Of a stretch of DNA of 64,000 nt, positions 21,377 to 25,296 are shown piece after piece. The stretch covers positions 4,156,852-4,220,851 of the forward strand of contig NZ_CP084028.1 of the NCBI RefSeq assembly GCF_020181595.1, written 5' to 3'. Made by a program: the position numbers and the translations under genes. The notes below the pieces were generated by a model, which saw only the letters and a program-made list of their open reading frames with translations, made no database searches and had not been told where the DNA came from. The stretch is from [Mycobacterium] vasticus (GTDB lineage Bacteria > Actinomycetota > Actinomycetes > Mycobacteriales > Mycobacteriaceae). Within the stretch, counting starts at the first letter, position 1. Each line of letters opens with the position of its first letter.

Positions 21377-22396
21377 ATGGATCTGGAACCGGTAGCGCAG
21401 TGGATGTCGAGCCGAGGTTTGGGCGACGGACCACTGGAAGACGTCACCGAACTTTCCGGCGGCACCCAGAACGTCATGCTGCGATTCACCCGGTCGGGCC
21501 GCGGCTACGTGCTGCGGCGCGGCCCGCGGCACCTGCGGCCGCGCAGTAACGCGGTGATGCTGCGCGAGACCCGGGTGCTGGCCGCGCTGGCCGGCACCGA
21601 CGTACCGCACCCGCGGCTGATCGCCACCTGCGACGACCCTGAGGTGCTCGGTGACGCGGTGTTCTACCTGATGGAGCCGGTGGACGGGTTCAACGCCGGC
21701 GAGGGGCTGCCCGCCCTGCACGCCGGCGATCCCGCGGTGCGCCACGAGATGGGCCTGTCGATGGCCGAGTCGCTGGCCAAACTCGGCGCCGTCGACCATG
21801 TCGCCGTGGGGCTGGCCGACTACGGCAAGCCGGACGGGTTCCTGGAACGGCAGGTGCCGCGCTGGCTGGCCGAGCTGGACTCCTACCGACAGTTCGAGAA
21901 CTACCCCGGCCCGGATCTGCCCGGCATCGACGACGTCGCCGCCTGGCTGCAGGCCAACACCCCGTCGTCGTGGCAGCCGGGCATCCTGCACGGCGACTAT
22001 CACGCTGCCAACGTGATGTTCTCCCGCAGCGGACCGCAGCTGGCGGCGATCGTGGACTGGGAGATGTCGACCATCGGGGACCCGCTGCTGGACCTGGGCT
22101 GGCTGCTGGCCACCTGGCGCCAAGACGACGGCTCCAGCGTGTTCAGCCACACCCTGACCGGCATGGACGGGTTGGCCTCGACCGGCGAGCTGGTGGAGTG
22201 CTATGCCGCCGGCAGCTCCCGCGACCTGTCGAACATCGGCTGGTACACCGTGCTGGCCAGTTTCAAGCTGGCGATCGTGATCGAGGGGACCCTGGCCCGG
22301 GCGTCCGCCGGGATGGCGCAGCAGGAAGTGGGCGAGCAGCTGCACGACGCCGCGGTCTGGTTGTTTGAGCGCGCGCAGGGCTTGATATCGGGTTGA
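21377..22396 (+). CDS. APH-family phosphotransferase (FadE36-like)
   Basis: A 339-residue aminoglycoside-phosphotransferase-fold kinase. The catalytic loop is HGDYHAANVM (H205, D207, N212) and the metal-binding Asp is in IVDWEM (D227). The N-terminal lobe has the GGTQNVM nucleotide loop. It resembles Rv3761c, labelled FadE36 although it has the APH and not the acyl-CoA dehydrogenase fold. The substrate is unknown; related proteins accompany acyl-CoA dehydrogenases. It is in an operon with the upstream SnoaL-like gene. Confidence 0.85.
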   Translation: MDLEPVAQWMSSRGLGDGPLEDVTELSGGTQNVMLRFTRSGRGYVLRRGPRHLRPRSNAVMLRETRVLAALAGTDVPHPRLIATCDDPEVLGDAVFYLMEPVDGFNAGEGLPALHAGDPAVRHEMGLSMAESLAKLGAVDHVAVGLADYGKPDGFLERQVPRWLAELDSYRQFENYPGPDLPGIDDVAAWLQANTPSSWQPGILHGDYHAANVMFSRSGPQLAAIVDWEMSTIGDPLLDLGWLLATWRQDDGSSVFSHTLTGMDGLASTGELVECYAAGSSRDLSNIGWYTVLASFKLAIVIEGTLARASAGMAQQEVGEQLHDAAVWLFERAQGLISG

Positions 22397-22524
22397 CCGC
22401 ACAACGGGAAAGATTCGTCGAGATTCGGAATAATCTCGGATCATCAGGGGCTGCGTTGATTTTCGCGCCGCACTTATGACGAAAATGTTGTGCTGTCTAC
22501 CTAGGCGAGCTAAGGTTGATTGCT

Positions 22525-22833
22525 GTGGACGATCGTCACAAGGATCCAACCGTTGTACTGCCCTACTTGGTCGGTAGGCCACTCGGTGCCACCGAGGTCT
22601 ACGAGGCATTCGGCTATCGCAAGTCCGCCTACTACAAGGCGGCGCACGAGGGTCGGCTGATCAGTGCGGACAATCTCATTCGAGTCGCCCGGTATTTCGG
22701 CTTGAACCCGGTCGACCTGCAGGTTCGTTTCGGGCTGATCGAGCACGACGCCGTCGCGGAATACCTGCAGGATTCGTCGAGGCCGTTGCGCATCGGCGAT
22801 CTCAAGGCCGATCTGGACAAACCACCGGTCTGA
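22525..22833 (+). CDS. Small helix-turn-helix regulator of the membrane-protein triplet
   Basis: A 102-residue protein whose centre (LGATEVYEAFGYRKSAYYKA, AHEGRLISADNLIRVARYFG, then LNPVDLQVRFGLIE) reads as a helix-turn-helix in an XRE/excisionase-like arrangement. It is followed by a short acidic tail. GTG 22525 has an AAGG ribosome site; an in-frame TTG lies three codons earlier. The upstream 128 bases are notably AT-richer than the surroundings. Only 28 bases separate its stop from the first of three tandem membrane-protein genes, so it is probably co-transcribed and may control them. I do not recognise a named family. Confidence 0.65.
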   Translation: MDDRHKDPTVVLPYLVGRPLGATEVYEAFGYRKSAYYKAAHEGRLISADNLIRVARYFGLNPVDLQVRFGLIEHDAVAEYLQDSSRPLRIGDLKADLDKPPV

Positions 22834-22861
22834 CGGGGCATTCGGGAAGTACCGTCGACGC

Positions 22862-23611
22862 ATGACGTCGGCCTTCATAGGCGTCACCGTGGTGGTGGCG
22901 CTATACAGCCTGTGGGTGCGCCGCGACACGTGGTGGTCCCGCTGGGAGATCGGTGTCAGCACGGCAATCGCGCTGGAGTGCGCCGCATTGGTGCTGATGT
23001 CGCCGTGGGCGGCCGAGACCATCGGCTCGCCACTGCATCGGGCCGCCCACATCTGGAACCTGCAGCAGTTGGTCGGCCACCAGTTCCTGGTGATCGCCAT
23101 CTCGGTCAACGCCCACCACGTGCTGTTGCGCCTGGCTGACCACGAGCGGATTCGGCCGCTGTTTCGCCGGCACGTGGTGTGGCCGGTGCGAATCGGGCTG
23201 CTGGCATTGGCGGTGGTGTTCGTCGTCGCCGACGCGGGTTACCGGCCGGACGGATTCTCGACCAGCGGCGGAGTCTGGGCCAACGTCTACTGGGTGCTGT
23301 GGTGCGGCCTGCTGATCTACCTGTCCGGCTGCGCTACGCGACTGCTGCTGGCGCTGCGCGACGATCCACGCGCCAAGGAGACCGTCGAGCTCTACACCGC
23401 CTCGTCGGCATTCGCGCTGGCCGCCTTGATGGCGCAGTTGAGCATCACCTGGTCCAAAAACGACGCCAGCACGCTGGTCTGGTTTTGCGCGTGCGTGTCG
23501 GTGACCATCTTCGCCTACGGCTCGGCACGTTCGTGGCAGGCCAAAGCGGCCTGGTTCCACAGCGGCAGGCTTCCGGTCAGCGAGAACAATCCCCCGCAAT
23601 CGTTGGCGTGA
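22862..23611 (+). CDS. Tandem membrane protein paralog 1, about seven segments
   Basis: A 249-residue polytopic membrane protein of unknown function. The signature LWVRRDTWWSRWE (residues 17-29) follows the first segment. Next come a segment ending MSPWA, the WNLQQLVGH stretch, a basic loop, two more segments, the ALRDDPRAKETVELY loop and a terminal ARSWQAKAAWF tail. Proteins 2 and 3 repeat every one of these landmarks in the same order. The overall pattern distantly recalls the membrane half of actinobacterial MAB_1171c-like (DUF6545) proteins, which also sit beside small HTH genes. That is a memory-based comparison and the C-terminal half of those proteins is absent. Confidence 0.7.
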   Translation: MTSAFIGVTVVVALYSLWVRRDTWWSRWEIGVSTAIALECAALVLMSPWAAETIGSPLHRAAHIWNLQQLVGHQFLVIAISVNAHHVLLRLADHERIRPLFRRHVVWPVRIGLLALAVVFVVADAGYRPDGFSTSGGVWANVYWVLWCGLLIYLSGCATRLLLALRDDPRAKETVELYTASSAFALAALMAQLSITWSKNDASTLVWFCACVSVTIFAYGSARSWQAKAAWFHSGRLPVSENNPPQSLA

Positions 23612-23620
23612 GTGCGCCCG

Positions 23621-24343
23621 ATGACGTCGGGGTTCATCATCGCCACATTGGCGATCATCGTCTATAGCCTGTGGGTTCGCCGCGACACGTGGTGGACCCG
23701 CTGGGAGGTCACCGCCAGCTTCGCCGTCGCGATGGAAGGCTGCGCGCTGCTGTTGATGTCGCCGTGGGCCGCGCCCACCGTCGGAGTGATGCTGCACCAA
23801 GCGCTCGGGGTGTGGAACGTGCAGCAGATGCTCGGCCACCTGTGCTTGATCGCGGCGGTGTCGGGCAACATCTACCACATGTTGGTGCGCCTGGCTGACC
23901 CCGAACAGGTGAGGGTCTTGATGCGGCGTCAGCTCATGGTGCCGATCTGGCTGGGCGTCGCGGTCATGGTGCCCACCTTCGTGCTCGCCGACCAGGACTA
24001 CGTCCCCGACTTCTTCTCCGCCCCGTCCGCCAATTCCTGGATGATCGTCTACGCGGTGACGGGCAGTGCGGTGGTGCTCTACCTCAGTGCCTACGTCAGC
24101 CGGCTGATGCTGACCCTGCGCCAGGACCCGCGGGCCAAGACCACCATCGACCTCTACCTGGTGTCGATGGGGTTCGCGGCGGCCGCCACGGCGACGGTGA
24201 TCGCCTCGGCCTGGGTCGACGGCGACGACACCGGTCCGGTGATCTGGGTCTGCGTCTGCCTGTCGATCGGGGTCTTCGCCTACGGCTCGGCACGCTCCTG
24301 GCGGGCGAAGAGCGCGTGGTTCTCGCCGGCGACGGCCCGATAG
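23621..24343 (+). CDS. Tandem membrane protein paralog 2
   Basis: A 240-residue paralog of the preceding gene. It has the signature LWVRRDTWWTRWE at the same position (17-29), then MEGCALLLMSPWA, VWNVQQMLGHLC, LTLRQDPRAKTTIDLY and the closing ARSWRAKSAWF. ATG 23621 is preferred over GTG 23612 because it aligns with the MTSxFI/MSxxFI start of the other two copies. It lies ten bases after the first paralog's stop. Function unknown. Confidence 0.7.
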   Translation: MTSGFIIATLAIIVYSLWVRRDTWWTRWEVTASFAVAMEGCALLLMSPWAAPTVGVMLHQALGVWNVQQMLGHLCLIAAVSGNIYHMLVRLADPEQVRVLMRRQLMVPIWLGVAVMVPTFVLADQDYVPDFFSAPSANSWMIVYAVTGSAVVLYLSAYVSRLMLTLRQDPRAKTTIDLYLVSMGFAAAATATVIASAWVDGDDTGPVIWVCVCLSIGVFAYGSARSWRAKSAWFSPATAR

Positions 24344-24349
24344 TCGGGC

Positions 24350-25075
24350 ATGTCGGCTGTATTCATCACGGCCGCACTGGCCGTGGTCTGTTACTGCCTG
24401 TGGGTTCGCCGCGACACCTGGTGGTCGCGCTGGGAGTCCGCCGCCACGTTCGCGATCGCGATGGAGGGCTGCGCGCTGCTGCTGCTCTCGCCGTGGGCCG
24501 GCCATGAGCTCAGCCCGCTGCTGCACAGCTTCCTGGGTGTGTGGAATGTCCAGCAGCTGGTCGGCGGCCTGTGCATGATCATCGCGATCGTCGCGAACAT
24601 CAACCACATGCTGGTCCGGCTGGTGCAGCCCGACCTGGTGCGGCCGCTGATGCGCAAGCACCTGCTGGTGCCGTTGAGCCTGGGTGTTGCGGTGATGCTG
24701 GTGGCGTTCGTCGAGGCCGACTACGGCCACCAGCCGGACATGTTCGCGAGCATGACGGGCGACCGCTGGGTGAGCGCGTACGAGCTGGCGATCGCCGCCA
24801 TATCGGTGTATCTGGGCAGCTACATAGGCCGACTGATGCTGCTGCTGCGGCATGATCCGCGGGCCCGCACGACCGTGGCGCTGTACCTGGCGTCGTTCGT
24901 GTTCGCGCTGGCGGCATGCGTGCTGGTGGCCATCTCGATCTGGATCCGCAGTTATCTGGGCCCGGCGATCTGGGGCTGCATCTGCCTATCGGTGGGCATC
25001 TTCGCCTACGGGCTGGCGCGGTCCTGGCAGGCCAAGCAGGCTTGGTTCATGCCGCAGGCCGCCAAGCGCCGGTGA
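24350..25075 (+). CDS. Tandem membrane protein paralog 3
   Basis: A 241-residue third paralog with LWVRRDTWWSRWE (17-29), MEGCALLLLSPWA, VWNVQQLVGGLC, LLLRHDPRARTTVALY and ARSWQAKQAWF. By eye it is closer to paralog 2 than to paralog 1, consistent with successive tandem duplication. It starts six bases after the previous stop and ends only 16 bases before the tRNA-Arg gene on the other strand. Function unknown. Confidence 0.7.
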   Translation: MSAVFITAALAVVCYCLWVRRDTWWSRWESAATFAIAMEGCALLLLSPWAGHELSPLLHSFLGVWNVQQLVGGLCMIIAIVANINHMLVRLVQPDLVRPLMRKHLLVPLSLGVAVMLVAFVEADYGHQPDMFASMTGDRWVSAYELAIAAISVYLGSYIGRLMLLLRHDPRARTTVALYLASFVFALAACVLVAISIWIRSYLGPAIWGCICLSVGIFAYGLARSWQAKQAWFMPQAAKRR

Positions 25076-25090
25076 CGCGAGGAAATTTTG

Positions 25091-25163
25091 TGCGCCCGAA
25101 GGGATTCGAACCCCCAACCTTCTGATCCGTAGTCAGATGCTCTATCCGTTGAGCTACGGGCGC
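25091..25163 (-). tRNA. tRNA-Arg(ACG)
   Basis: A 73-base tRNA. The acceptor stem runs from G25163 (GCGCCCG pairing with CGGGCGC), the anticodon loop CTACGGA gives ACG, and the T-loop is GGTTCGAATCC. The discriminator is A and CCA is not encoded. A34 is the target of TadA, encoded at 13034-13495. Confidence 0.95.
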
Positions 25164-25204
25164 GTGTCTTCAGTTGTACTGCATCGGCCGAGCAAGCTCA
25201 GCCG

Positions 25205-25296
25205 TGGCGGAGGCGAGAGGATTTGAACCTCCGGTCCCCCGTAAAGGGGACAACTCATTAGCAGTGAGTCCCATTCGGCCGCTCTGGCACGCCTCC
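25205..25296 (-). tRNA. tRNA-Ser(GCU)
   Basis: Class II tRNA with a long GC-rich variable arm. The acceptor GGAGGCG pairs with CGCCTCC. The anticodon loop CTGCTAA gives GCU, the T-loop is GGTTCAAATCC, the discriminator is G, and CCA is encoded (25207-25205). Confidence 0.95.

Follow-up and report, generated by a model that had tools for sequence, protein, structure and literature searches.

A chromosomal operon of a phage-type repressor and three paralogous seven-helix membrane proteins in Mycolicibacter, with a possible receptor for the repressor C-terminal tail

The window analyzed here is a 64,000-nucleotide stretch of the [Mycobacterium] vasticus chromosome (RefSeq assembly GCF_020181595.1, contig NZ_CP084028.1, positions 4,156,852 to 4,220,851 of the forward strand), in which a gene for a small helix-turn-helix (HTH) protein is followed by three genes for membrane proteins, designated M1, M2, and M3 and, together with their relatives, M. 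Sequence comparison places the HTH protein and M among the relatives of temperate-phage lysogeny genes. M adjoins repressor genes in phages as well as in host chromosomes, a C-terminal tail of the repressor co-occurs with M, the HTH and M genes differ in selection, and the operon promoter is conserved. The tail, ...DxPPL-COOH in the repressors encoded beside M, constitutes a new lead. In our judgment, the best reading, held at about even odds, is that M is a membrane receptor that docks this tail and controls the repressor.

The HTH protein matches phrog_1746, "transcriptional repressor" (E value of 2.4e-27), and shows 44 to 45% identity with Amohnition gp45 and CrimD gp43. Relatives were found by tblastn in 316 phage records (313 Mycobacterium and 3 Gordonia phages), and among the 30 matches listed, identities ranged from 43 to 51% and 29 were annotated as immunity or transcriptional repressors. 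By sequence, the protein is a relative of the immunity repressors of Cluster K mycobacteriophages. M1, M2, and M3 match PHROG 950, a group of phage proteins with unknown function, over nearly their full lengths. With M3 as the tblastn query, 241 phage records contained a relative (E value of 1e-3), and with M2, 303 did (E value of 1e-2, duplicates included), all from Mycobacterium phages. CrimD gp42 was not picked up by a profile built from three M sequences and was picked up by a broad profile (E value of 8e-30). In contrast to the phage members of PHROG 950, M1 to M3 are chromosomal, tandem, and common to a whole group of species. A Pfam search of the four proteins yielded no match above the cutoffs.

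The original prediction, made from the DNA sequence alone, described an HTH gene followed by three tandem seven-segment paralogs, and the coordinates, sequence identities, and AlphaFold2 model confirm this. Pairwise identities among the three M proteins are 45 to 56% (M2 and M3 share 49% and 46% with M1), and M3 used as a query in its own genome retrieves M2 and M1 with E values of 2.2e-86 and 1.3e-63, confirming at the sequence level that they are true paralogs. The motifs quoted in that prediction, LWVRRDTWW at residues 17 to 25, WNxQQ, DPRAxxTxxLY, and ARSWxAKxAWF, are invariant in all three, although the numbering in M2 requires the ATG at 23621. The M3 model has seven membrane helices (pLDDT of 88.1 and pTM of 0.85). 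Positions identical in M1, M2, and M3 amount to 32 of 47 on the cytoplasmic side, 13 of 40 on the outer side, and 44 of 145 in the membrane, and the outer loops are more variable across the whole M family as well. The conserved cytoplasmic face is rich in arginine (R20, R21, R90, R167, and R171). No 7tm Pfam family matched M1 to M3 at an E value of 1, and the best Foldseek E value against class C G protein-coupled receptors (GPCRs) was only 0.04. M has no sequence relation to class C GPCRs, such as mGlu and GABA-B, and a common helical arrangement need not imply kinship or function.

To cover diverse phages, 15 loci (Eureka, CrimD, and 13 from the 40 M2 matches listed) were read, and M adjoins a repressor in every one, in 13 by annotation and in 2 by sequence. 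The annotated neighbors are named repressor, immunity protein, or regulator, that of MalagasyRose only in a note. The remaining two, Baka 98 and Phrappuccino 40, are annotated as hypothetical and cluster with repressors by sequence; in Pfam, Baka 98 has no match and Phrappuccino 40 has only a subthreshold HTH match. The two genes share a strand, with M 3' of the repressor, in 11 loci and converge in 4 (MalagasyRose, prophiGD102-1, prophiGD17-2, and Phrappuccino), and an integrase is annotated, as a product or in a note, in 13 of the 15 stretches, the exceptions being Gaia and Baka. Another 37 loci came from viral contigs, many of them near-identical, found with an alignment of phage M proteins and those of the lipL locus, a host site described below. 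In 33 of these, a relative of a repressor query occurs within 400 bp, and in 27 the stretch includes an integrase. The host survey covered 148 genomes of the genus as defined by the search tool (E values of ≤1e-8 for M and ≤1e-5 for HTH); M and HTH were each found in 93. Among the 108 host M arrays, the HTH gene is upstream on the same strand in 96, convergent at the 3' side in 3, and absent within 500 bp in 9, so that 99 arrays have an HTH gene in that range; conversely, of 114 HTH sites, 15 lack an M gene in the same range. Because M stays next to the repressor even where its orientation is flipped and the two genes converge (4 of the 15 phage loci and 3 of the 99 host arrays), we count its position in favor of a receptor. 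In the Mycobacterium abscessus prophages L054 (2261-3283), L063 (2269-3390), and L133 (3496-4566), the gene next to M is annotated as an acetyltransferase or a membrane protein with an acetyltransferase domain.

The repressors beside M end alike: ...LDKPPV in the window, ...SDAPPL at the lipL locus, ...EDAPPL in Eureka, ...RNPPL in MalagasyRose, ...QDAPPI in Baka, and ...KGPPL in prophiGD17-2. A strict tail was defined as ending in PP[LIVM] and a loose tail as ending in P.?[LIVM] with one further G or H permitted, and counts cover the loci fetched, a subset of the 99 survey arrays. The strict tail is present in 45 of 65 nonredundant M-adjacent repressors (32 of 37 from hosts, 8 of 16 from phages, and 5 of 12 from viral contigs) and the loose tail in 58 (36, 14, and 8). 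With redundancy kept, the strict tail occurs in 59 of 64 host, 8 of 16 phage, and 12 of 33 viral-contig repressors, and the loose tail occurs in 63, 14, and 16, respectively. None of nine repressors encoded in phage stretches without an M profile match has the tail; three of these controls (Giles 47, Tweety 45, and Brujita 34) are classed as repressors although not annotated as such. The tail is also absent from 17 other HTH proteins, Cro-type ones among them, whose naming relied in part on position, and from 247 host and 226 phage genes that are not repressor-like, taken by a simple open reading frame (ORF) rule. Fisher's exact test for 45 of 65 versus 0 of 9 gives a P value of 9e-5, which is only a guide because the rows are related. 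Across 11 operon rows, 12 of 15 tail positions are invariant, compared with 1 of 7 in the linker and 77 of 80 in the DNA-binding part.

Several comparisons separate the tail from the domain that carries it, and a natural experiment among the prophages is the most telling single test. The DNA-binding part of prophiGD102-1 gp7 is 62 to 72% identical to those of the phage repressors listed. The two of these that were read, Che8 gp48 and TootsiePop gp42 (62 to 71% identity), end in ...RARQRRKD, without the tail, and have no M in their stretches; Che8 and TootsiePop belong to Cluster F1. CCUG48898T-2 gp7 has a different DNA-binding part and matches only residues 98 to 126 of the 128-residue prophiGD102-1 gp7, with 76% identity, and an M gene is convergent with it (profile E value of 1.4e-81). 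The Gordonia phages Posh and Phistory have a DNA-binding part related to that of the prophiGD102-1 repressor (53% and 42% over the matched stretch), and their repressors (Posh, L134 3447-3863; Phistory, L135 3303-3719) share another tail, GGxKGIETPP...SQDPDDH. In these examples, then, the tail follows the partner gene rather than the DNA-binding domain. Like the host locus, the Posh 46/45 and Phistory 54/53 cassettes, which we take to be of the type called ImmR/ImmA, consist of a repressor with an adjacent partner and a common tail of its own, but the partner is a nonmembrane HExxH protein annotated as a metalloprotease or metallopeptidase, and the tail differs. These cassettes may provide a second example in which a repressor tail is linked to a partner gene.

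The operon genes differ sharply in selection. Median dN/dS ratios (Nei-Gojobori, 17 loci) are 0.033 for HTH, 0.348 for M1, 0.328 for M2, and 0.476 for M3, and those of five neighboring genes (11 to 17 loci each) are 0.148, 0.185, 0.205, 0.239, and 0.310; the HTH gene is nearly frozen, and the M genes are fast-changing. Internal stops are absent from HTH and M1 to M3 in the 17 loci compared, which include the window and leave out L010, an operon locus interrupted by a contig end. The combination of a frozen regulator and fast-changing M proteins suits a single regulator governed by several receptors whose outer faces change.

On this reading, the locus would be a chromosomal repressor-receptor module of the same kind as in the immunity cassettes of temperate mycobacteriophages. 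One promoter would drive, probably as a single transcript, the small phage-type repressor gene and the three M genes, with each M protein predicted to be a seven-helix receptor that has its N terminus outside and its C terminus inside. The conserved cytoplasmic face may dock the DxPP[LV] tail; the tail, which usually has an acidic residue and a hydrophobic C terminus, would be a suitable ligand for an arginine-rich surface. M might anchor, inactivate, or protect the repressor, which would be held or released depending on what the variable outer face encounters, be it the envelope state, a ligand, or a phage, and the three copies could give one repressor three different inputs. A wider reading, which is conceivable but which we rather doubt as a whole, would be a one-step form of signaling exchanged between phages and mycobacterial chromosomes, in which a GPCR-like receptor takes up the repressor tail and passes an outside signal directly to transcription or the lysogeny decision, the tail serves as a portable tag that unrelated repressors can acquire, and a single repressor in Mycolicibacter receives input from three receptors. 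If M does control the repressor through the tail, this would suggest how the phages of about 300 M-bearing mycobacteriophage records sense the cell surface; it would also add a new repressor partner besides the metalloprotease type and mean that mycobacteria maintain such a device for their own use, with Mycolicibacter having three or four copies.

A number of observations weigh against a tail-docking receptor. Most host tails may be common by descent, so that the independent cases could be few. The DNA-binding parts of the M-adjacent repressors form three groups at an E value of 1e-6 and only two at 1e-3. Even the loose tail is missing from the repressors of Yuna, ZoeJ, and L142 and from 17 of the 33 repressors on viral contigs, which are closely related to one another and end in ...PAP (16) or ...DAP (1). 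When L026 and L027 are included (14 rows), only 4 of 15 tail positions are invariant versus 57 of 80 in the DNA-binding part, and none of the 7 linker positions is. No known repressor was found beside M in the viral contigs L123 to L126. Repressor and M distances correlate over all loci (r of 0.48, with none of 5,000 permutations as high) and weakly in phages alone (r of 0.20, 382 of 5,000), and no cro-like divergent gene was seen at the host locus in the ORF list, no profile search having been made in the window. Finally, orphan HTH genes without an adjoining M keep the strict tail. Fourteen such places were fetched (L137 to L150), of which L142 has an M by the broader profile; 10 of the remaining 13, and also L051, have the strict tail, the HTH proteins of L137 (G134) and L138 (G017) have DKPSV at the end, and that of L150 is either truncated or shifted. 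The genomes of the 10 PP[LIVM] orphans and G000 (L051) carry M elsewhere, and G134 has no M at the survey threshold; on the basis of one case, the pattern fits M acting in trans. As a separate observation, M in L123 to L126 adjoins a convergent reading frame that matches none of the repressor queries and lacks the PPL end, possibly a third type of partner.

The main rival of a tail-docking receptor is superinfection exclusion, since these genes are lysogenically expressed in Adephagia, defense has been proposed by authors, and some lysogens are immune beyond their own kind. M, made with the repressor in lysogeny, would block the entry or growth of other phages, the host would have taken over the cassette, and contact between M and the repressor would be unneeded; we consider this unlikely but well worth weighing. 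It agrees with the position of M in the lysogeny cassette, its fast evolution, and its tandem copies. In the Adephagia study, gene 42 is reported to be expressed at a low level with the repressor in the lysogen, and its overexpression gives small colonies (ratio of 0.14) (PMC11373665). Adephagia gp42 is represented in our sequence comparison by its counterpart, CrimD gp42. The K4 genome authors propose a possible defense role for lysogenically expressed genes including the seven-transmembrane (7-TM) gene (PMC5679791). An Adephagia lysogen is reported to be partly immune to all Cluster K phages tested, with partial immunity to TM4 and Pixie (PMC3203893), and the immunity of a K4 lysogen is reported to extend to a cluster Y phage (PMC12699233). 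However, about 60 phages plated alike on Adephagia lysogens and nonlysogens (PMC11373665), the conserved face of M is cytoplasmic rather than outer, and exclusion leaves the common repressor tail and the near-frozen host HTH unexplained. The PADLOC antiphage defense models also gave no match at an E value of 1 for HTH, M1, M2, or M3.

It is quite improbable that a cellular protease instead recognizes the PPL tail as a C-terminal degron or stability signal, with M an unrelated neighbor. Integration-dependent phage repressors do bear C-terminal degradation tags (PMC8092301), and PPL-tailed orphan HTH proteins occur without an adjoining M, but the tail is missing from all nine repressors of M-less stretches and tracks M within one DNA-binding family. 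A toxin-antitoxin-like or membrane-stress pair, in which free M is harmful and HTH represses its expression, is very unlikely. HTH is the first gene of the operon, and growth is reported to be impaired when either Adephagia gp42 (small colonies) or its repressor gp43 (3-log loss) is overexpressed (PMC11373665), but the same source has the 7-TM gene expressed, not silent, in the lysogen, complete loci retain three stop-free M copies, and orphan M without HTH persists in six surveyed genomes.

Pairs of a repressor and a 7-TM protein of unknown function are already in print for phages (PMC11373665 and PMC5679791). In the Cluster K cassette (Adephagia 43/42, CrimD 43/42, and K4 Chancellor 47/46), as in the host locus, the repressor gene is followed by the 7-TM gene on the same strand, whereas each phage carries a single M gene along with a divergent cro-type gene and an integrase, and the host has three M genes and lies by tRNA-Arg (in the window and in 13 of the 17 other loci). 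The cassette sequences compared were those of CrimD, ZoeJ, Nergal, Yuna, Cheetobro, and Aminay; Adephagia and Chancellor are known from papers alone. In the MabR prophage McProf, PMC9434293 and PMC8191103 place a gene of unknown function, moderately expressed in lysogeny, between the integrase and a convergent repressor, a likeness of position and description. Neither the chromosomal three-copy form nor the common repressor tail turned up in our literature searches.

The original prediction left the choice among a membrane sensor, a heteromeric complex, and a phage-exclusion system; it held the two leading readings and was right about a phage link, but the kinship it suggested with the membrane half of MAB_1171c-like proteins is not supported. 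The NCBIfam model MAB_1171c (NF042915) scores 19.6 bits for M3 (E value of 3.9e-4) against a cutoff of 100 and gives nothing at an E value of 1 for M1 and M2, and it reaches M relatives of two other genomes at E values of 6e-6 to 3e-4, far under the cutoff. DUF6545 (PF20182), suggested there for comparison, has no match at an E value of 0.001 in the whole genome, and an hhalign profile-profile comparison of M with the MAB_1171c family gives a probability of 1.2%. Neither a match to a transporter family nor degenerate copies, the outcomes named there as contrary, occurred. The MAB_1171c family resembles the host locus in having an HTH gene near a membrane protein but differs in its larger size, its C-terminal soluble part, and the protease gene in between: L065 (G026, 314-2676) has an XRE-type HTH gene, an ImmA/IrrE-like protease gene, and then a MAB_1171c-type membrane protein. 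The MAB_1171c-like matches L068 to L071 adjoin an HTH gene resembling EspR; EspR and ImmA/IrrE are designations read off the sequences without a profile.

Table 1. Features of the operon and its surroundings, in window coordinates
Feature	Position	Strand	Match or method
Predicted promoter, TTGTGC, 17-bp spacer, TAAGGT, 8 bp 5' of the GTG start	22488..22516	+	
HTH regulator gene, 102 aa, GTG start, kin of Cluster K mycobacteriophage immunity repressors	22525..22833	+	phrog_1746
HTH C-terminal tail, LRIGDLKADLDKPPV, after a variable linker	22786..22830	+	
M1, 249 aa, 7-helix membrane protein, PHROG 950	22862..23611	+	phrog_950, E 4.7e-50
M2, 243 aa (240 aa from the ATG at 23621), M1 paralog	23612..24343	+	phrog_950, E 1.5e-50
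M3, 241 aa, paralog; predicted N-out/C-in seven-helix bundle, GPCR-like arrangement	24350..25075	+	phrog_950, E 6.7e-49; AlphaFold2
tRNA-Arg(acg), 3' end toward M3	25090..25163	-	ARAGORN, Rfam RF00005
tRNA-Ser(gct)	25205..25296	-	ARAGORN, Rfam RF00005

The closest named relatives of the source genome (complete, 4.55 Mb) are Mycolicibacter, and the nearest M1, from Mycolicibacter sp. MYC123, is 94% identical. The intergenic gaps are 28 bp between HTH and M1, 0 bp (GTG) or 9 bp (ATG) between M1 and M2, and 6 bp between M2 and M3 (Table 1). The pattern TTG[TC]G[CTG]-N17-TAAGGT-N8-GTG is present in all 18 operon loci (the window and L009 to L025) and was not found at the three HTH genes of L026 and L027. 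As the predicted promoter is kept eight bases ahead of the GTG in all 18, the sequence suggests that the HTH mRNA is leaderless, with transcription starting close to the GTG. The upstream gene on the same strand (21377-22396) looks phosphotransferase-like from its ORF translation. The two tRNA genes noted in the original prediction are indeed there, directly 3' on the minus strand. As to an integrated prophage or remnant at the tRNA, an ungapped scan of 25071-25165 against 22391-22530 only found no duplicated tRNA 3' end (att repeat), with a best score of 8 and a shuffle maximum of 9. No integrase was seen near the host locus in the ORF list, likewise without a profile search. Elsewhere in the source genome are a single additional M (37% identity) and a single additional HTH (80% identity over 83 residues), apart from each other, and we read the gene adjoining the extra M as a glycine-tRNA ligase.

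The order of HTH and tandem M genes, for which a neighborhood survey had been suggested, recurs in 17 other loci (L009 to L025), 16 of them complete, with three copies each and four in L020 and L024. In the genome survey, nine arrays have three or four copies, and these are taken as Mycolicibacter since their HTH proteins are 91 to 99% identical to that of the window. The tRNA-Arg and tRNA-Ser genes lie 0.1 to 3 kb downstream of the operon in 13 of the 17 loci; the L010 and L015 stretches end too soon, and L012 and L016 have neither gene in about 8.5 kb downstream. In all 13 genomes looked at, 2 with the operon and 11 apparently without it there, the two tRNA genes adjoin a hisC2-like gene. 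A tree of 95 M proteins, made by a quick search with two fragmentary rows excluded and with several long branches meeting, places M1 in one clade (18 loci), M2 in one clade (17 loci), and M3 with the fourth copies in another, indicating that the copies are older than the split of these Mycolicibacter species. In Mycolicibacter acidiphilus, L026 (1255-5467) has two HTH genes in one locus in the order HTH-M and then HTH-M-M, a possible intermediate toward HTH-M-M-M.

Among 10 fetched loci of the commonest single-copy type (L032 to L035, L037, L040, L041, L044, L046, and L048), 8 have an ileS-family flank, 7 have a lipL-family gene on the opposite flank, and 5 have both, the flank names being taken from one locus. 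The lipL-locus M copies form one clade (support of 89) with phage Gaia as a neighbor, and this clade makes vertical inheritance at one site likely. The lipL-type pair of L048 (G002) is decaying, with stop codons in HTH and an internal deletion in M, owing to which the array was scored as two M copies. Several Mycolicibacter-type genomes (L028 to L031, L049, and L050; L051 and L143 to L149) have an orphan M and a separate orphan HTH ending in PPL, and all six surveyed genomes with an M lacking HTH also hold an orphan HTH elsewhere. The genes flanking the orphan M of L049, one of them glycine-tRNA ligase-like, match those of the source genome.

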